The notes under the pieces are model-generated. The model made no database searches and was not told where the DNA came from. It was given only the letters and a program-made list of their open reading frames with translations. Both the position numbers and the translations under genes were made by a program. From Paracoccaceae bacterium (GTDB lineage Bacteria; Pseudomonadota; Alphaproteobacteria; Rhodobacterales; Rhodobacteraceae), in the NCBI GenBank assembly GCA_029862205.1, contig JAOTXT010000043.1, forward strand, positions 1 through 36,882: DNA of 36,882 nucleotides, given 5' to 3'. Shown here in pieces: positions 27,273-36,861 of the stretch (positions are counted from its first letter, which is position 1; every line of letters starts with the position of its first letter).

Positions 27273-27315
27273 TGGCGCCCGCTTATCACGTGCCGTCACG
27301 CCGGGAGAAGGCTTT

Positions 27316-27360
27316 GAGCAAAACCGGATCAGACTGATTCAGTCTGAAACGGTTTTGGTC
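27316..27360. repeat. Imperfect 45-base palindrome between phoR and the DddP-like gene
   Basis: The two 21-base arms around ATT are reverse complements with three mismatches, built from AAAACCG and TCAGACTG segments. The inner TCAGACTG and CAGTCTGA arms are perfect. It touches the stop codon of the DddP-like gene and sits about 44 bases before the phoR start. It resembles a dispersed alphaproteobacterial palindrome and could terminate the upstream operon. I cannot confirm its copy number here. Confidence 0.7.
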
Positions 27361-28589
27361 TAGCCCAGCAATGCCTCGTCCAACGGGTAGTCGGACAGAA
27401 CCTCGCACCCGGTCTCGGTGATCAGCACCTGCTGTTCCAGCTTGACCCCGTCGCGCTCGCCGACCGCGCCCATATAGCTCTCGACGCAGATCACCATGCC
27501 CGGCGCGAGCACGCCGTCATAGGGCGTCGGGCCCCGGAAGCGCGGGTTCACACGGGGGAATTCGTCGCACATGCCGACCCCGTGGACGATGCAGGGATAG
27601 GCCTGTTGTTGGAACTCCTCCGGCACCTCGAAGGCTTGGGCCTGGATCTCGCCCAGCGTCATGCCGGGACGCATCAGGCCCATATTGTGCTCGACCTCGT
27701 CCAGCGCCAGCCGGTAGAGCTCGCGCTGCCGCCCGCTTGGCAGGCCCGGACCGCAGAAGAAGGTGCGCGAGATGTCGGCGAAATAGCCCATCGGTCCGAT
27801 CATGTCGGTGTCGAAGGCCACCAGGTCACCCGCCTCGACCCGGCGCGGCGAGGCCTCCTGCAGCCACGGATTGGTGCGCGGGCCCGAGGCCAGCATCCGC
27901 CCATCGTGCCAATCCCCGTCATTGGCCAGATTGGTGTAGTTCAGAAGGCCCCAGAGCTGCAGTTCGCTGACCCCAGGGCGCAGCGCCTCGCGCATCTTGT
28001 CCATTCCCAGCGCGGCCACCGCGCAAGCCCAGCGAATGCAGGCGATCTCGTCCTCGGACTTGATCACCCGCGCCATCTCGGAAATCGCCACCCCGTCGGT
28101 CACCTCGATGCCCCGCTGCAACAGTGCCTGGGTGATCGAGGGGTTCACGTATTCGACCGCGACCCGGCGGTTGTCCGAGCCGACTTCGGAAAGGAAGCCG
28201 ACCACGTCATCGGCGAAGAGCCGCGCCGCTTCGGCGAGATCCGGACCGCCATCGAAGACGCTGATCGCGCGGCCTGGGCGCGCCTCGATGCCGGTCCCGG
28301 GCGCGATATAAGAGCCATAGGCGGCGATCGGGCCGTCGACAGGCAGAAACAAATACGTCGAGGGGATGTGGGACTGGAAGAGCGCATAGGAGCGATAATC
28401 GATCGCGTAACGCAGGCTGATCGGGTTGACCAGGACGCACATCGCCACGCCGGCCTTGCGCATCTCGGCCTTCAGCCGCCCGATCCGCCAGGCATATAGC
28501 CGGTCGCGGTCGATCTGGGGCATCGGGCGATGGCGGGAAAGCTCGCTCCACTCGGCGTCCATGACCATCTGATCCGGGCCGATGCTCAT
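27360..28589 (-). CDS. DddP-like M24 (creatinase/pita-bread) metalloenzyme
   Basis: The 409-residue protein has an N-terminal creatinase domain and a C-terminal pita-bread domain. It resembles the DMSP lyase DddP over its whole length, including the N-terminal IGPDQ, the LASGPRTNPW motif and the end VLSDYPLDEALLG. The metal ligands of DddP are kept: Asp260, Asp262, Asp272, His336, Glu370, Glu385. So are the Tyr331 and Asp342 equivalents of active-site residues. DddP splits dimethylsulfoniopropionate to dimethylsulfide and acrylate. The specificity loop differs from canonical DddP, so it could be a divergent DddP or a related onium-compound enzyme. An ordinary Xaa-Pro peptidase is less likely. 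It follows the Rieske oxygenase by 10 bases. Confidence 0.75.
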   Translation of the reverse strand: MSIGPDQMVMDAEWSELSRHRPMPQIDRDRLYAWRIGRLKAEMRKAGVAMCVLVNPISLRYAIDYRSYALFQSHIPSTYLFLPVDGPIAAYGSYIAPGTGIEARPGRAISVFDGGPDLAEAARLFADDVVGFLSEVGSDNRRVAVEYVNPSITQALLQRGIEVTDGVAISEMARVIKSEDEIACIRWACAVAALGMDKMREALRPGVSELQLWGLLNYTNLANDGDWHDGRMLASGPRTNPWLQEASPRRVEAGDLVAFDTDMIGPMGYFADISRTFFCGPGLPSGRQRELYRLALDEVEHNMGLMRPGMTLGEIQAQAFEVPEEFQQQAYPCIVHGVGMCDEFPRVNPRFRGPTPYDGVLAPGMVICVESYMGAVGERDGVKLEQQVLITETGCEVLSDYPLDEALLG

Positions 28590-28599
28590 GGTTCCGCGC

Positions 28600-29781
28600 T
28601 CATGGGGCCAGGATCGCCTCAACGATCTTGGCCGAAAGCTGGTGCGCCGGCACCTCCCAGGCCGGTGACATGACCGAGCCCTGGAAGCCGATCGAGCGGC
28701 GGCCCTGCTGCAGGCGTTCCAAGAGCTGCACATCCTCCAGGTTCAGATCGTGCCACATGGCGATCAGGTCCTCGCGGCCCTTGGCATAGCGTTCGGCCTC
28801 GGCGGCCTCGTCGCCGACAACGAAGAAGTGCAATTCCTCCTCGGTCTCGTCCGGCGCCGTCGGATGGATCGACATCACCACGAACTGGTCCGCATAGACC
28901 TCGGCCAGGAAGTTCGGCATGACCGCGAACCACATGCCGCGCCGCGCGTCCTCGTCCGAGAGGCCGGGATAGTGAGGCAGGCCGTCGCCCCTGCCTTCGC
29001 TCAGGCCTGGCGCCACGTAGTCGTTGTAGAAGACATGCTCCAACCACTCGCCCGACCAGCGCACATGCATGGGCGCGTGTTCGACCAGGCGGGGATGGGC
29101 GGCGAAGACGTGATAGCCCTCCATGTAATTTTCCAGCACCAGCTTCCAGTTCGCCTTGATCCGGTAGGCGCGCTTGCCGATCCACCGGATCTGCGCGAAG
29201 TCGAAGGCCGAGGTCCGGCGCAGCATCGGCGCCAGCCAATCGTCAAGCGCGGGCGCGGCACCGGAGATGTCGACGAAGACGCAGCCGTTCCAGACCTCGC
29301 AGCGCACCGGGGCCAGGTCGAGGCCGGGGGCGCCATCGTCGAACCGCTCGACCTTGCCGGGGCCGTGGAAATGCGGCCGCGAGCGCAACTTGCCGTCCAG
29401 CCGGTAAGCCCAGGCGTGGTAGGGGCAGGTCAGCGTCTTCGCGACGCACTCCTCTTGCACCAGCATCGTCCCTCGATGCCGGCAATGGTTGTGGAAGGCG
29501 CGAATCGTGCCCTCGGTGTCGCGCACTGCGATGACCGGCGTCCCGCCAACCTCGATCGGCTTGACCCCACCTGGCGTCAGCTCGGCCGCCGCGCAGGCAA
29601 AGACCCAATTGCGGCGGAATAACCGCGCCTGCTCCAGCGCCAGCCAGTCCGCCGACCAATAGGCGGCGTTCGGCAAGCCGCCGGGCTCCTCGATCGGGCG
29701 GGTGATCTGGACCAGCCCGTCCTCGCCCAGGATTGCGCGCACCTGGCGCGCGATTTCGGTCTCGGCGGCGATCCCGTCCAT
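28600..29781 (-). CDS. Rieske non-haem iron oxygenase, alpha subunit (quaternary-amine type)
   Basis: The 393-residue protein has a Rieske [2Fe-2S] site with Cys100-x-His102 and Cys119-x2-His122, and a mononuclear iron site with His224, His229 and Asp350. The residue that bridges the two sites is Glu221 in ENYMEGYHVF; most ring-hydroxylating oxygenases have Asp here, while the carnitine, glycine-betaine and related quaternary-ammonium oxygenases have Glu. An oxidative demethylation or C-N cleavage of an onium compound is therefore the best guess. The ATG at 29781 follows GGGGAGAG. No reductase partner is encoded nearby. It is the first gene of an operon with the DddP-like gene. Confidence 0.88.
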   Translation of the reverse strand: MDGIAAETEIARQVRAILGEDGLVQITRPIEEPGGLPNAAYWSADWLALEQARLFRRNWVFACAAAELTPGGVKPIEVGGTPVIAVRDTEGTIRAFHNHCRHRGTMLVQEECVAKTLTCPYHAWAYRLDGKLRSRPHFHGPGKVERFDDGAPGLDLAPVRCEVWNGCVFVDISGAAPALDDWLAPMLRRTSAFDFAQIRWIGKRAYRIKANWKLVLENYMEGYHVFAAHPRLVEHAPMHVRWSGEWLEHVFYNDYVAPGLSEGRGDGLPHYPGLSDEDARRGMWFAVMPNFLAEVYADQFVVMSIHPTAPDETEEELHFFVVGDEAAEAERYAKGREDLIAMWHDLNLEDVQLLERLQQGRRSIGFQGSVMSPAWEVPAHQLSAKIVEAILAP

Positions 29782-29959: not shown

Positions 29960-30589
29960 ATGTCCGAAGAGAGCAAGGTTGGCCATTCCTACCTCGCCCG
30001 CACGCCCCAGGAACAACAGGCAGCCTACGATGATTGGGCGGCTACTTATGAGCGCGACCTCTGCGCCATGGGCTACCGAATTCCGGCCATGGCGGCGGCG
30101 GTCTTCACCCGGCACGTGGCGCCGGATGCGGCGCCGATCCTGGATGCGGGCTGCGGCGGCGGCATCCAGGCCGAGCCCCTGGTGGCCATGGGCTACGGCC
30201 CCTTCACCGGGATCGACCTCTCCGAGGGAATGCTGGCCATCGCCCGGGCCAAGGGGATATATGCCGAGCTTCGCCAGATGGCGCTCGGCGGGCGGCTCGA
30301 CTTTCCGGACCACGCCTTCGCCGCCGTCCTCTCCTGCGGCACGATTACGCCGGGCCACGCCCCGCCCGAGAGCTTCGACGACCTGATCCGGGTCACCCGC
30401 CCCGGCGGTCGCCTGATCTTCTCGCTGCGAGACGACGCCGCCCAAGACCCGGCCTACCCGGCTGCGCTGGAGCGCCTGACCCAGGCCGGCGCCTGGCGCC
30501 CGGTCTTCGCCACCGAGCCCCTCCAGTCCATGCCCTATGGCGAGCCGGAGGTGTTTCACCGCATTCATGTGTACGAGCGAGCGGGGTGA
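29960..30589 (+). CDS. Class I SAM-dependent methyltransferase
   Basis: The 209-residue protein has the Rossmann methyltransferase core: motif I ILDAGCGGG at residues 60-68, the acidic GIDLSEGMLAIAR segment at 84-96, and a later VTRPGGRLIFSLRDD motif. The N-terminal YDDWAATYERDL and overall length resemble METTL27-like methyltransferases; the substrate is unknown. The ATG at 29960 follows AGGAG. It is divergent from the Rieske oxygenase with 178 bases between starts, so it may share regulation, but there is no direct evidence that the products work together. Confidence 0.85.
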   Translation: MSEESKVGHSYLARTPQEQQAAYDDWAATYERDLCAMGYRIPAMAAAVFTRHVAPDAAPILDAGCGGGIQAEPLVAMGYGPFTGIDLSEGMLAIARAKGIYAELRQMALGGRLDFPDHAFAAVLSCGTITPGHAPPESFDDLIRVTRPGGRLIFSLRDDAAQDPAYPAALERLTQAGAWRPVFATEPLQSMPYGEPEVFHRIHVYERAG

Positions 30590-30859
30590 GCGGGTTGGGA
30601 TAACCGGTCGGCGTACGGCAATTGCCGGCTGTGCGGACGAAGCGGACATTCACGCTGCCCGCTAAGAAGGTCAGCTACTGACCCAATCCGGGCTCTAAGC
30701 ATCAATCATGTTCGGCAATACAGAGAGCTTTGAGCCGTTAATTGCAAAGGGGCGTGACGGGCTTGATGGACCACAGGCCGCTCACGCACTAAGAATTTGG
30801 GCGGGTTGAATGCCGCGACACTCTGGGCGCGGCGACGGATAAGCGGAGGCTGGCCGATC
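30590..30859. other. Lower-GC intergenic region before the molybdenum hydroxylase gene
   Basis: This space of 270 bases is visibly richer in A and T than the genes to its left and holds no convincing ORF or RNA gene. A short motif AGCGGACATTCA near 30650 has a related copy (AGCGGACGTTAA) after the hydroxylase gene near 33323. No promoter elements could be assigned with confidence. Confidence 0.35.
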
Positions 30860-33148
30860 ATGAGCACAACAGACGCGACTGGGACGTCCCCGGGTGATTT
30901 CAAATATATTGGTACCCGTGCACCGCGACCCGATGGATTCGAGAAAGTTACGGGGCGAGCGCGCTTTGGAAACGACATTAACCTACCGGGAATGCTACGA
31001 GGCCTCGTTTTGCGCAGCCCGCATGCCCACGCCCTGGTGAAATCCATTGACACGTCGAAGGCCCTTGCGCTGCCGGGGGTCAAGGCCGTCGTGACACGGG
31101 ATGATTTTGCCGACCAGCCTTCGGAAATTGTTCCAGCGGGAGAATTGGTGGTCAACTACCGCGACGTGGTGCGCAACATCATGGCCCGCGAGAAGGTGCT
31201 CTATGATGGCCACCCGGTCGCTGCGGTGGCCGCGACCAGCCTCTCGATCGCAAGGAAGGCGCTCAAGCTGATCGAGGTGGATTACGAAGTTCTGCCCCAT
31301 GTCATCGAGCCAATGGCAGCGGCGGCCCCCGACGCGCCTTTGCTGCACGACTTCATCTTCACCGAAGGAGTTGAGCCGAAGCCGGACAAACCGTCCAACG
31401 TCGCTAAGCGGGTTGCGGTAACGCGTGGTGATGTGGACGCCGGGTTCGCAGCGGCCGACGTCATCATCGAGCGCGAGTACGACACCAAACCGGTGCATCA
31501 GGGTTACATTGAACCGCAGGCCTGCACAGCCAACTACGTCCGCGGCGGGCAAAGCGAGGTTTGGACCACGACCCAAGGGCACTATCTGAAGCGGGCCTTT
31601 ACTGCACGGCTCTGCGGGATGGAGACCGGAGACCTAAAAGTGACGCCGACCGAGATTGGTGGCGGCTTTGGTGGCAAGAACAACGTCTATCTGGAGCCGG
31701 TGGCCCTGGAGCTGTCGCGCAAGAGCGGCAGGCCGGTGAAGATGGCGATGAGCCGGGGCGACGTGATGCGCGCCACCGGCCCGACCTCGGGTGCGCACAT
31801 GCGGGTCAAGATCGGCGCGAAGTCGGACGGAACAATCACCGCTGGCGAAGCCGAGATGTGGTATCAGGCCGGGGCATTCCCGGGCTCGCCTGTCGGCCCG
31901 GCCTCAATGACCACCTTCGCCTGTTATGATTTGGAGAACGTCAACGCCGTCGCCTACGACGTGGTCAGTAACCGCCCGAAGGTTGCCGCCTATCGCGCGC
32001 CTGGCGCTCAGATCATCAGCTACGGCGTCGAAAGCACGATCGATTTGGTGGCGCGTGAGATCGGCATGGATCCGATTGATTTTCGCCTGAGAAATGCTGC
32101 CAAGGAGGGCACACAAGCCGCATATGGCCCAACCTTCGGCCCGGTTGGGCTCGTTGAATGCCTGGAAGCGCTCCGAAGCCACCCGAACTACAGGGCTGAA
32201 CTCAAGCCGAACCAGGGCCGCGGCATTTCGGTGGGCTTCTGGTTCAATATCGGCGGCGACACCTGCGTGACCATGAATGTCAACGAGGATGGCTCGCTCG
32301 GGCTGATGATCGGCAATCCTGATATCGGCGGATCGCGCGCCTCGATGGTTCTGATGGCTGCCGAGGCACTGGGCGTCGACCCGGAGACCGTCAAGCCCAC
32401 GGTCGGTGATACCAATGCGCTGGGCTTCAATTTCCTAACTGCGGGCAGCCGAACGACCTTTGCAGTCGGCAAGGCAACCCACGATGCTTCACTGAAGGTG
32501 ATCGAGGAGTTGAAGCGCCGCGCCGCGGAAACCTGGAGCATCCCAGTCGAAGCTGTAGATTGGAAGGACGGTCATGCCCGCCCCGCCGGACCTAACGCTG
32601 GCGATTTTGAGCCGCTCTCGATCGCGGAGATTGCAAAGAATGCCAGCAAGACCGGCGGGTCCATTTCCGGACATGTGGAAGAAAATGTGAAGGGCGCCGG
32701 TCCAAGTTTCGCGGCGGAGATGATCGATCTCGAGGTCGATCCGGAAACCGGCAAAACCACGATCCTGCGTTGTACCGTCGCCCAGGACGCCGGCAAGGCA
32801 ATTCACCCCTCCTATGTAGAAGGCCAGTACCAAGGCGCGGTGGCACAAGGCATCGGGTGGGCATTGAACGAAGAATACATCTACGACGACAATGGGAGGC
32901 TGGATAACCCAACATTCCTCGACTACCGCATTCCTGTCGCCTCGGATCTTCCTATGATCGACGCGGTGATCGTCGAGGTTCCTAACCCGAACCACCCGTA
33001 CGGCGTCCGCGGAATTGGCGAGACCTCGATCGTGCCAGTCAAAGCCGCTGTCGCGAATGCGATCGCTGATGCTATCGGCGTACGACTGACCGATTTGCCG
33101 ATGTCACCGCCGAAAGTGTTAAAGGCGATTGAGCAAGGCGTCTGTTAG
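30860..33148 (+). CDS. Xanthine dehydrogenase family molybdopterin-binding subunit (orphan)
   Basis: The 762-residue protein is the large subunit of a molybdenum hydroxylase, a family that hydroxylates purines, aldehydes, nicotinate or aromatic acids with water as the oxygen source. Family features are visible: the N-terminal DGFEKVTGRARFGNDI, the cofactor-binding GGGFGGKN and YRAPGA motifs, and the catalytic glutamate near residue 721 in GVRGIGETSIVP. The ATG at 30860 has GGAGG at 30845-30849. The partner FeS and FAD subunits and the maturation genes are not in the window, which is unusual. The gene and its flanks look lower in GC than neighbours, suggesting separate origin or transfer. Confidence 0.9.
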   Translation: MSTTDATGTSPGDFKYIGTRAPRPDGFEKVTGRARFGNDINLPGMLRGLVLRSPHAHALVKSIDTSKALALPGVKAVVTRDDFADQPSEIVPAGELVVNYRDVVRNIMAREKVLYDGHPVAAVAATSLSIARKALKLIEVDYEVLPHVIEPMAAAAPDAPLLHDFIFTEGVEPKPDKPSNVAKRVAVTRGDVDAGFAAADVIIEREYDTKPVHQGYIEPQACTANYVRGGQSEVWTTTQGHYLKRAFTARLCGMETGDLKVTPTEIGGGFGGKNNVYLEPVALELSRKSGRPVKMAMSRGDVMRATGPTSGAHMRVKIGAKSDGTITAGEAEMWYQAGAFPGSPVGPASMTTFACYDLENVNAVAYDVVSNRPKVAAYRAPGAQIISYGVESTIDLVAREIGMDPIDFRLRNAAKEGTQAAYGPTFGPVGLVECLEALRSHPNYRAELKPNQGRGISVGFWFNIGGDTCVTMNVNEDGSLGLMIGNPDIGGSRASMVLMAAEALGVDPETVKPTVGDTNALGFNFLTAGSRTTFAVGKATHDASLKVIEELKRRAAETWSIPVEAVDWKDGHARPAGPNAGDFEPLSIAEIAKNASKTGGSISGHVEENVKGAGPSFAAEMIDLEVDPETGKTTILRCTVAQDAGKAIHPSYVEGQYQGAVAQGIGWALNEEYIYDDNGRLDNPTFLDYRIPVASDLPMIDAVIVEVPNPNHPYGVRGIGETSIVPVKAAVANAIADAIGVRLTDLPMSPPKVLKAIEQGVC

Positions 33149-33644: not shown

Positions 33645-34679
33645 TCACCGACCATCCACCCGCCCCCTCGGCTGATATCCCGCCAGGGCCGCGATACGCT
33701 CGCGGATGCTAAGATGGATGATCTCGCCGTCTCCCCGCCCGGTGACCCTGGGTTGGCGCAGCAGGTAGAACTTCGCGGCCCCGCGCCGTGGCCCGACCGA
33801 GGGCGCGGCGCTATCCTCCGGGAACTGCGCCCGCCAATCCTCAGGCAACGCCAAGCCCAGATCGGCCGCGCGGCGCAGCATCCAGTTCAGCGACAGATTG
33901 GCAAAGGGCCGCGCCGCCGCGTTGCGGCGAATGTCCCCGCCCACATCGCCGTGGACGCCCGGGAACCAGGCCTGTTCCAGCCTGCCCTCCCAATGGTGCG
34001 ACCGCCTCCACAGAATCGGCGCGAAGGCGCTGCGATCCTCGTCGATCGCCAGGGCGTGGTAGCCGTGCCGGATATGCCCGCCCAACGCATGATCGTGGAA
34101 ATCGGTCGCCATCGGCGCCAGCCGCGACAGACCGGGATAGGGCAGGCCCAGGGCGCGCACCGTGTCCCAGACCCCCAGCATCTCGATCTGTGCTTCGCCG
34201 TGGCACCGCTCCTCGGCGAAGGCGAGGCAGCGGCGGCGCTGCCGCTCGCCGTCCTGGCGCTCGTAGAACCGGAAGGCGCGGCGGATATTGCGTTCGGTCG
34301 CCATCTCCTGGCGCAGCAACCCGACCGAGCCGATCATCCCGGCCAGCGAGCGCACCGCATAGGCGCCACGGGAATAGCCGAACAGATAAATCCGGTCGCC
34401 CGTCTGGTAGCGGCTGGCCAGGAACCGGTAGCCCTGGATGATCGACAGGTTGATGCCGTTGCCGGTTGCTGCGTTGAACCAGCGCCGCCAGCCGTTTCCC
34501 TGAACGCCTGGGTCATAGTCGAAATGCTGGACGCGCGACCGGCCGACCTGCTCGAGAAGCCGCAGCACCTGGCCCGCATTTGTCTCGCAGCCGGGCTTGA
34601 GCGTCGACAGGGTGCCGTCCGAGATAAAGACCAGGTTCCGGGGGGCGCCCGTCAAGCCCGCGCTCCGGATACCCGGCAC
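33645..34679 (-). CDS. DUF2235 alpha/beta-hydrolase-like protein, N-terminus possibly frameshifted
   Basis: From GTG 34679 the protein has 344 residues and the pattern of DUF2235 (Tle1-like) hydrolases. It has FISDGTLSTL near residues 18-27, the nucleophile elbow GYSRG at 101-105 (FGYSRGAYAVRSLAGM) and the later VHGDVGGD at 242-249 with the acid or histidine region. Some DUF2235 proteins are phospholipases used as secretion effectors; many free-standing ones have no known role, and no secretion genes are present here. No good ribosome-binding site precedes the GTG. A better start, the ATG at 34750 (MQPLKIRAVRNLGAAV), is in another frame and would join this one if a single base were missing, so the gene may have a frameshift. 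Confidence 0.8.
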   Translation of the reverse strand: MPGIRSAGLTGAPRNLVFISDGTLSTLKPGCETNAGQVLRLLEQVGRSRVQHFDYDPGVQGNGWRRWFNAATGNGINLSIIQGYRFLASRYQTGDRIYLFGYSRGAYAVRSLAGMIGSVGLLRQEMATERNIRRAFRFYERQDGERQRRRCLAFAEERCHGEAQIEMLGVWDTVRALGLPYPGLSRLAPMATDFHDHALGGHIRHGYHALAIDEDRSAFAPILWRRSHHWEGRLEQAWFPGVHGDVGGDIRRNAAARPFANLSLNWMLRRAADLGLALPEDWRAQFPEDSAAPSVGPRRGAAKFYLLRQPRVTGRGDGEIIHLSIRERIAALAGYQPRGRVDGR

Positions 34680-34786
34680 GGGCAATTTCGGCCCGTTTTC
34701 GCCACGGCTGCGCCCAGGTTCCGGACGGCACGAATTTTCAACGGCTGCATAGGGGTTTCCCAGCTGAAGATGCGCCGAAAGCTTAA

Positions 34787-34807
34787 TTGACCCCGTCTTG
34801 GGGTCAA
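34787..34807. promoter_or_regulatory. Inverted repeat in the DUF2235 / 648-residue gene divergent region
   Basis: TTGACCCC and GGGGTCAA surround a five-base spacer in the space between the two divergent genes. This could be an operator for either gene. There is no other evidence for its role. Confidence 0.4.
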
Positions 34808-34914
34808 CGGTCCCGCTTGCCTCATCATAGAGTTTCGGACATAAAAGCAAGATCGTGTTTTCATTATGGAAATCGCCGCAACGGAAAGCGGCGTGACAGT
34901 GGGAGCCCCATCGC

Positions 34915-36861
34915 GTGCTCAAAGACGACCGAATGATGTCGATGCTGACCGTCGTGGTGATCCTGATCGCAATCGGGACCTTGGTCCAGCGCATGGATGT
35001 CTTCGAGAAATATTTCGGCGGTGAAACCCAGCGCTTTGCCCATGTCGCGGACGAAGTGATCGTGCGGGCAAACGTGCTGAGCGACATCGACGTGCTGGCG
35101 AATGACCAAGGGATCGAGGAGGGTGATGCGGACCGCCTGCTGATCATCGCCCAGCCCGATTGCGGGCGCGTTTTTGCCGAGGAGGGCCTTGCGCACTACA
35201 TGCCCGCCGACCGATGCGTGGGCGTCCAAACTTTCTACTACGCGGTCAACGGGCGCGGCAATCAACCGGGCGAGGTCAGGGTTACCGTGCGGCTTGGCGA
35301 GGTGACGGAAAGCATGGTGGAGAATGCCCAGCGCGACACGCCCGCGCCGCAGCCCCAGGCGCCCAGCACCGAAGTGCAGGCCGCGGCCGACGCCACGACC
35401 GCTCCGGCCGCGCCCACGGCCCCTCAGGGCAGCTTGACGACGAGCGGCGCCGTCGCTCAGGCGCCCGCGGTGCCAAAGCCGGAAGCGCCGACGATTACCG
35501 AACTGCCGGCGAGCGCACGCGGCGCCTCGTTGGGCGGTTCGGGCTCCGGCGCCGGCATCGCGCGTGAAAGCGCGGGCGCCGCTCCGCGTGTCGTCGATAC
35601 GACCGACGCCCTCGCGGGCGAACAGGTCTCGGCGGCGACACCCGAGGTCGCCCTGACACGCACGCCGGATTCCACCGCCGCTCCGGACGCCGCCGCCGAT
35701 CCGCAAGGATCTGCCGAAGGCGTTGCGGCGGGCGCCAGTGAACTCGGCCCGGACCAAGAGTCCGCGCCGGATCCGCAAGCGTCCGTGCCGGCCGAGATCG
35801 CTGCCGCCACGCCCGAGAGCGGCGCGGGCGAAGCGGCCGCAGGTCAGGATCAAGCGTCCGGGACGGCCGCGGTCACGCCGATCGAGGAGACACAAGACAG
35901 CCCCGCAACGATCCGGCGCGCCGAGCCCCAGGAACTCGCCGATGCTGCCGCCACCGAACCCGGAAGCGAAGCCCCCGACGAGGCAGTCGCGGTCCTACGT
36001 GAAAGCGAAGCGGCGAACCTCGCTCCGAACGTCACCCGGGTCGACACAACGCCGCCGCCGGAACTGAAAGACCCGGATGCGGCGAGCGCGCCCGCTCCGC
36101 AAGAGGAAACATCCGGGACCCAGGTCGCCGCCCGCCCGCCGTCGGCAGAACCGTGCACCGTGCCCGCGTCGCTCACCCTCGACGTGCGCGCCGCGGCGAT
36201 CACATATGCAATCATCGAGTCTCCCTGCCATGCGGGCACGGTGGCCGAACTTGGCTACGAGGGTCTGCGCTTCGCGATCCCGATCGACGGGGCCGGCACC
36301 GGCACCATCGCGGCGCCCGGATTCCAAAATGCCAGCGACGCGACCATTCGATTTGCCGACGACGCCCGGCTGAACTTCAGCATCGCTTTCAATGACACCG
36401 AGAAAATGGACCGTGTCGCGGTCGCGACCGAGGCCGCCACCGAGCTTCAGCTCCATGCCTTCGAATTTGGCGCCGCGCCAGGCGGCCCGGACCATGTGGG
36501 GCCCGCCAATCCACGGCGCCACGACGATGTTCGCCGCAGCGGCGGCGGCTACCTGCTGGAATACGCGCCGGTTGATGGCACCGGCCAATCGGTCGAGATC
36601 TACACGTTCTGGCACCGCCGGCGCGGCGGCGAGGGCATCGTGCGGCTGGATTTGGGTCTTGGCCGGGATAGCGGCCCTGCCGCGGGATGCGGTGGCGGCG
36701 GCGCGGGAGGCACGCCCGATTACGTCGTGCTGCGGACGCAGAAGGGTAAGTTACTGCGCCCGCGTCTAGGCCTTCTGGCACCGATCGACTGCGCGGCGCT
36801 CGCCGCCAGCGGCGGATTCGTGCCCGATGCGATTGATGACATCGTGGTGCGAAAGCGATAG
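34915..36861 (+). CDS. Membrane-anchored protein with cadherin-like segment and Ala/Pro-rich linker, unknown function
   Basis: I do not recognise this 648-residue protein as a named family. It begins with one membrane helix (about residues 10-24). A small domain at about 40-130 has the look of a cadherin/Ig-like repeat (NVLSDIDVLANDQG, then FYYAVNGRGN) with Cys83 and Cys101 placed for a disulfide. Residues 140-410 form a low-complexity linker rich in Ala, Pro, Glu and Thr. A folded C-terminal part (about 415-648) has several cysteines and beta-rich character. The arrangement suggests an inner-membrane protein that spans the periplasm, or a cell-surface protein. The start is a GTG at 34915 with GGGAG at 34901-34905. 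It is divergent from the DUF2235 gene. Confidence 0.75.
   Translation: MLKDDRMMSMLTVVVILIAIGTLVQRMDVFEKYFGGETQRFAHVADEVIVRANVLSDIDVLANDQGIEEGDADRLLIIAQPDCGRVFAEEGLAHYMPADRCVGVQTFYYAVNGRGNQPGEVRVTVRLGEVTESMVENAQRDTPAPQPQAPSTEVQAAADATTAPAAPTAPQGSLTTSGAVAQAPAVPKPEAPTITELPASARGASLGGSGSGAGIARESAGAAPRVVDTTDALAGEQVSAATPEVALTRTPDSTAAPDAAADPQGSAEGVAAGASELGPDQESAPDPQASVPAEIAAATPESGAGEAAAGQDQASGTAAVTPIEETQDSPATIRRAEPQELADAAATEPGSEAPDEAVAVLRESEAANLAPNVTRVDTTPPPELKDPDAASAPAPQEETSGTQVAARPPSAEPCTVPASLTLDVRAAAITYAIIESPCHAGTVAELGYEGLRFAIPIDGAGTGTIAAPGFQNASDATIRFADDARLNFSIAFNDTEKMDRVAVATEAATELQLHAFEFGAAPGGPDHVGPANPRRHDDVRRSGGGYLLEYAPVDGTGQSVEIYTFWHRRRGGEGIVRLDLGLGRDSGPAAGCGGGGAGGTPDYVVLRTQKGKLLRPRLGLLAPIDCAALAASGGFVPDAIDDIVVRKR

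Follow-up and report, generated by a model that had tools for sequence, protein, structure and literature searches.

Gene organization of the locus

The stretch of DNA analyzed here, 36,882 nucleotides from a Paracoccaceae bacterium (hereafter the window), carried two genes on its reverse strand: one for a Rieske non-haem iron oxygenase of the alpha-subunit type (29781..28600, 393 aa) and, downstream of it, one for an M24 protein (28589..27360, 409 aa) belonging to a sister clade of DddP. A gap of 10 bases (28590-28599) lay between the stop codon of the Rieske gene and the start codon of the M24 gene, in agreement with the spacing and arrangement given in the first-pass annotation. The Rieske protein contained the Pfam domains Rieske and Ring_hydroxyl_A, and the M24 protein contained Peptidase_M24. 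The best-matching NCBIfam families were GbcA for the former (151 bits) and DddP for the latter (283.4 bits against the equivalog model NF043017); since the cut-offs of these models are 670 and 600 bits, respectively, neither protein qualifies by curated score as a member of its family.

The M24 stop codon was directly followed by an imperfect 37-base palindrome (27320..27356, assigned to neither strand) that was predicted to form a strong hairpin (fold of 27295-27375, z-score -4.3). This palindrome was a dispersed repeat, present at nine places in the genome with at most three mismatches and at four of them with none. The hairpin may mark the end of the transcript; a consensus scan detected no promoter, and the hairpin was not among its terminators. 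Divergent from the pair, on the forward strand, was a gene for a class I SAM methyltransferase (29960..30589), identified by Pfam and by a PDB match in which METTL27 was the nearest solved structure. Relatives of this methyltransferase with 57-67% identity occurred in three other loci (L052, L059, and L060), which had themselves been fetched by the M24 gene, and the methyltransferase is possibly a gene associated with the pair. Farther along were a molybdopterin-binding large subunit of the xanthine dehydrogenase/aldehyde oxidase family (30797-33148), next to which we noticed no gene for an iron-sulfur or FAD subunit, and an open reading frame with a Pfam match to a T6SS Tle1-like phospholipase catalytic domain (33645-35147).

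The block consisting of the methyltransferase, Rieske, and M24 genes adjoined phoR-pst-phoU-phoB. In a genome of the same genus (G338), this regulon was found with 53-78% identity (47% for phoR), and the block was absent from the 20 kb examined beside phoR. Elsewhere in G338 there was no close copy, the best M24 match having 43% identity and no Rieske gene being found at E 1e-75. Because G338 has the regulon and not the block, the block appears to be accessory. A functional link of the pair to the phosphate regulon is unlikely, as the hairpin lies between M24 and phoR and G338 has phoR-pst without these genes on the stretch examined.

The M24 protein has a DddP-type metal site and a different pocket

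Asp260, Asp262, Asp272, Tyr331, His336, Asp342, Glu370, and Glu385 were all located in the translation of the M24 gene at the positions given in the first-pass annotation. In the alignment with DddP, with residue numbers taken from parts of PMC4108388, Asp260, Asp262, Asp272, and Tyr331 faced Asp295, Asp297, Asp307, and Tyr366, and His336, Asp342, Glu370, and Glu385 faced His371, Asp377, Glu406, and Glu421. Ordinary M24 peptidases have five of the same six metal ligands, according to passages of PMC5395565 and PMC4108388. PMC5395565, a review, further states that the sulfur of DMSP is bound by a Trp and a Tyr in DddP, and that the two catalytic His of the peptidases are replaced in DddP by Asp and Phe.

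A scan of genome contigs yielded 311 M24 relatives, of which the best 80 (60-70% identity) were taken as core loci; according to their record titles, these spanned Alphaproteobacteria, Gammaproteobacteria, and Acidimicrobiales. We constructed a tree of 117 rows comprising 48 core proteins (thinned from 83), 31 DddP-like proteins, 25 DddPs, and 13 DoeA, c15, and peptidase rows, by a quick method without bootstrap and with a midpoint root and long peptidase branches. The core proteins formed one clade (SH-aLRT 100) that was separate from the set containing DddP, and the window protein was placed on the DddP side of the tree rather than with the peptidase and DoeA rows. The "para" labels in this tree were assigned by rank, and the rows bearing them were scattered in several places, including inside the DddP set. 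The grouping with ordinary peptidases, which the annotation had named as a refuting outcome, was thus not observed.

The six metal ligands, Tyr331, and Asp342 were kept in all 83 core members, and these eight residues together with Trp242 were common to the 83 core and 25 DddP rows, one DddP row being gapped at positions 370 and 385. At position 71 the core had Phe in 78, Tyr in three, and Trp in two of the 83 members, whereas Trp was present in 25/25 DddP rows. We take the sulfur-binding Trp of DddP to be Trp95, a number that fits the alignment and places it opposite Phe71 of the window protein. Tyr79 and His228 were invariant in the core (83/83 each), where all 25 DddP rows had Ala and Ile, respectively, and Tyr218 was found in 83/83 core members and in 0/25 DddP rows. 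As in DddP, the two catalytic His of the M24 peptidases (prolidase and aminopeptidase P) had no counterpart in the window protein, which has Leu at position 243 and Asp at position 342. Position 243 was His in three of the four peptidase rows and Leu in 67/83 core members; the peptidase rows were too poorly aligned at position 342 to be counted, and outside the rows quoted here the DoeA and peptidase columns of this comparison were poorly aligned.

The AlphaFold model of the M24 protein (pLDDT 91.8) was closest to four DddP structures (RlDddP, 4RZY, 4S00, and 4S01; RdDddP, 4B28) with TM scores of 0.89-0.90 among the top 50 matches listed, in which prolidases reached at most 0.74, creatinase at most 0.70, and the ectoine hydrolase DoeA/EutD 0.66-0.69. 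Sequence identity to DddP in the structural alignment was 33%. The kept and replaced residues, together with the fold being closest to DddP, indicated that the M24 site is DddP-like machinery with an altered onium pocket. The description of the protein as DddP-like therefore stands with respect to the complete site and the placement in the tree, but it is not DddP proper: its score of 283 bits is far below 600 bits, it lies in a separate clade, and Phe71 replaces the sulfur-binding Trp. We likewise rejected an ordinary peptidase, because the protein clades on the DddP side and has Leu243 and Asp342 at the two peptidase His positions, and DoeA, because the score against the DoeA model was 29.8 bits, where the cut-off is 613, and the branch was distant.

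The genome of the window contained nine matches to the DddP model, the top three scoring 631 bits, 396 bits, and 285 bits (the window copy). The 631-bit match, a piece truncated by a contig end, exceeded the cut-off. It lay at G000:C158:3-1157, and a match to the C-terminal part lay at another contig end (G000:C66:53395-53532); the two probably represent a single gene divided by the assembly.

The Rieske protein forms a clade of its own

By alignment, C100, H102, C119, and H122 were assigned as ligands of the Rieske cluster, H224, H229, and D350 as ligands of the mononuclear iron, and Glu221 as the bridging residue. The bridging Glu, which had been correctly located in the first-pass annotation, was present in 15/15 rows of the Rieske clade. 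Its use there as a class marker, however, failed: the six nearest outgroup Rieske proteins had three Asp and three Glu at this position, most other aligned rows had Glu, and we rejected Glu221 as proof of membership of the Group V class. Some Group V members, among them CntA and Stc2, have a Cys-X-X-Cys pair beside the iron site, as described in part of PMC10952381. This pair was absent from the window protein, which has Gly222 and Val225, and from its clade as well.

In a tree of 56 rows, the orthologues formed their own clade of 15 rows (support 100/100), two of which came from the same locus, and this clade lay outside YeaW and eight GbcA-like rows. HcaE was the sole aromatic row, Stc2 was not among the rows, and the GbcA-like rows were all below the GbcA cut-off (best 499 bits). 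The protein scored higher against the GbcA model than against the aromatic dioxygenase models. Its predicted structure was moderately confident (pLDDT 80.4, with residues 103-113 below 50), and a fold search placed CntA and the stachydrine demethylase Stc2 at ranks 1-15 by E-value; the TM scores (0.66-0.74 for CntA and Stc2, up to 0.70 for terephthalate and other aromatic oxygenases) differed by a small margin. The protein resembles CntA/YeaW and Stc2 also in the bridging Glu and the His-His-Asp site, and no beta-subunit gene was found among the annotated neighbours of the Rieske gene, but identity in the structural alignments was 20-24%. It is therefore neither CntA proper, as it has no Cys pair and belongs to a clade outside YeaW, nor GbcA proper, as 151 bits fall short of 670 and its branch is apart from the GbcA-like rows. 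The kinship with carnitine and betaine oxygenases rather than aromatic-ring oxygenases was supported by the model scores and the fold ranks and weakened by the separate clade and the small TM margin.

Recurrence of the gene pair

Rieske and M24 genes occurred together in 13 distinct loci, that is, in the window and 12 others. Orthologous Rieske genes (52-69% identity) were found in 11 of the 80 M24 loci, to which the window and G200 were added; L011, L063, and L134, whose Rieske rows were identical, represent one locus and were counted once; G109 and L063 are likewise a single locus. In eight of the 13 loci the two genes were no more than 100 bases apart on one strand. The order was Rieske-M24 in most loci and M24-Rieske in L066, which is one of these eight, and in L067, in which the Rieske match was only partial. 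Two enolase-type genes lay between Rieske and M24 in L056, roughly 5 kb separated the pair in L052, and the genes were on opposed strands in L050. There was no orthologous Rieske gene on the stretch examined in 69/80 M24 loci, which counts against the onium-pathway reading; many of the core contigs are short, so the absence of a neighbour from these loci is weak evidence.

In a survey of 394 genomes of the family, in which scoring was limited to four candidates per genome, a close M24 orthologue (at least 65% identity) was present in three genomes and the Rieske gene (E 1e-75) in five, with three genomes shared; when the window is left out and relatedness among genomes is ignored, the hypergeometric p is about 8e-5. 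In the other two of these five genomes, which lack the close M24 orthologue, the Rieske gene adjoined a DAO+GcvT flavoprotein gene and an XRE-cupin regulator gene with no M24 gene beside it, which counts against the onium-pathway reading. A survey of 385 genomes of the class found M24 (E 1e-120) in six and Rieske (E 1e-90) in seven, with four shared; outside the window the identities were 51-64% for M24 and 40-46% for Rieske, and the two genes were non-adjacent, lying either on separate contigs or over 100 kb from each other, which also counts against it. The conservation of the pair was accordingly borne out by the 12 other loci and qualified by the occurrence of both genes apart. The pair in the window is more than a chance arrangement, given the 283-bit DddP-model score and the adjacent orthologous pairs in other genomes.

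Gene neighbourhoods of the Rieske and M24 clades

Among the 15 Rieske-clade loci, 13 of which were gathered via the M24 gene, a DAO+GcvT demethylase resembling dimethylglycine dehydrogenase was present in 11 and an XRE-cupin regulator in nine; enolase-type genes were present in five, an AcuI-like reductase in five, the methyltransferase in three, and MttB in one. M24 core loci were compared with 20 true-DddP loci, a control drawn from one family with a mean length of 19.0 kb, against 14.9 kb for the core loci from many taxa. Any Rieske gene was found in 21/80 core loci and 0/20 DddP loci (p=0.006), and enolase-type genes and AcuI-like reductases were each found in 19/80 and 0/20 (p=0.011 in both cases). 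Aldolase was present in 12/80 and 0/20 (p=0.12). The differences for DAO+GcvT (27/80 and 3/20, p=0.17) and MttB (9/80 and 0/20, p=0.2) were not significant, and the methyltransferase family was not enriched (8/80 and 1/20, p=0.68); these three results count against a methylated-amine function. We left out the count of second M24 genes (35/80 and 0/20), for which the model can match the core M24 itself.

In two Mesorhizobium plasmids, genes for betaine-type ABC transport and MttB lay no more than 9 kb from the M24 orthologue, and there was no orthologous Rieske gene on the stretch examined. Other M24 loci had aldolase, TauD, sulfotransferase, APS kinase, or second, DoeA-like M24 types nearby, the DoeA-like second M24 gene (cluster c15) occurring in 8/84 clustered neighbourhoods. 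Because the neighbourhoods were so varied, a single substrate class may not fit all M24 loci. Several arrangements were observed besides: in L074, L082, L092, L096, and L116 the M24 relatives directly preceded an APS-kinase gene, and in L082 and L096 a sulfotransferase also lay within this cluster. In L073 and L054, the M24 clade was near a different Rieske protein, which has the Cys pair and branches with the GbcA-like rows. In L042 (CP081100.1), a 44% M24 paralogue followed genes annotated as a fatty acid desaturase and a non-heme iron oxygenase ferredoxin subunit, which seems to be a further pairing with an oxygenase.

The genome of the window showed no full-length protein closely orthologous to the partner demethylase (best match 46%), which counts against the onium-pathway reading; a piece of 100 amino acids with 52% identity to the demethylase was found at a contig end. 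Next to the pair in the window we saw no gene for an amine transporter, and this too counts against that reading. Taken together, the neighbourhoods fit quaternary amines generally and no single compound, and their common thread would be the catabolism of methylated amines with several alternative ways of removing the first methyl group.

Discussion

With moderate confidence, we favour the reading that the operon encodes two enzymes of a pathway that degrades a positively charged, N-methylated (onium) carboxylic acid distinct from DMSP, by Rieske oxidation and a DddP-like lyase. The Rieske enzyme would be an alpha-only oxygenase with a reductase supplied from elsewhere, and would most likely either hydroxylate an N-methyl group, which would be released as formaldehyde, or, like CntA, hydroxylate the neighbouring carbon. 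In many relatives, the flavoprotein resembling dimethylglycine dehydrogenase may remove the next methyl group. The M24 protein would most likely act as a two-metal lyase whose metals hold the carboxylate; Asp342 would abstract the alpha proton, Tyr331 would help to position the substrate, and a beta leaving group would depart, as in the proposal for DddP. Although the annotation had placed oxidation before cleavage, nothing in our analysis orders the two steps. Of the sulfonium and quaternary ammonium compounds it had considered, the latter have some support in the neighbours, which favour N-methylated amines, and no positive evidence was found for the former. An N-onium acid is likely as the substrate and DMSP is unlikely.

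Three other explanations were weighed against an oxygenase and lyase acting on such an acid. Within the same methylated-amine pathway, the M24 protein might instead hydrolyse a C-N bond, as ectoine hydrolase and creatinase do, with the Rieske enzyme demethylating its substrate or its product. Hydrolysis of C-N bonds is typical of M24 peptidases, as noted in a passage of PMC5395565, and DoeA-like M24 genes do occur in some of the neighbourhoods (8/84, cluster c15); yet Asp342 and Tyr331 in 83/83 core members, Leu at position 243 in 67/83, and a TM score of 0.90 to DddP versus 0.69 to DoeA and 0.70 to creatinase make a hydrolase a rather unlikely alternative. A role of the M24 protein as a further DMSP lyase, with the Rieske enzyme acting elsewhere in DMSP or sulfonium metabolism, is highly improbable. 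DddP is its nearest characterised relative, and it retains the metal site as well as the proposed base, but the protein scores 283 against 600 bits in a separate clade, Trp is replaced by Phe in 78/83 members, Tyr79 and His228 stand where DddP has Ala and Ile, the genome already has an over-cut-off DddP, and the Rieske-clade neighbours point to N-methyl groups.

The remaining explanation assigns the two genes to separate pathways and attributes their proximity to chance or to hitch-hiking in a mobile catabolic island. In its favour, each gene occurs without the other, and G338 lacks the block next to phoR. Against this stand the 13 loci with both gene orders and, in L056, with enolase-type genes in between, the non-random co-occurrence in two surveys, and the presence of unrelated Rieske types near the same M24 clade (e.g., L073 and L054), and we regard it as improbable.

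A search of open-access literature, by titles and the starts of abstracts, found no description of a Rieske/M24 pair. As a tentative and broader proposal, the M24 clade could be an undescribed, DddP-sister family of onium lyases that catalyzes C-N beta-elimination on N-methylated zwitterions across Alphaproteobacteria, Gammaproteobacteria, and Acidimicrobiales, and that has been coupled repeatedly to different enzymes removing the first methyl group (at least two kinds of Rieske oxygenase, and MttB) in a hybrid oxidation-elimination route for quaternary amines. The pathway idea of the first-pass annotation is well worth following; what can be said more firmly is that a clade sister to DddP, with an altered pocket, recurs alongside Rieske oxygenases of the type that acts on quaternary amines. 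This large clade has the same catalytic site as DddP and an altered substrate pocket, and it lies beside amine oxygenases and demethylases. Its site, pocket, and neighbours suggest that the DddP scaffold also serves nitrogen osmolytes, and similarity-based surveys of DddP may count enzymes that do not act on DMSP.
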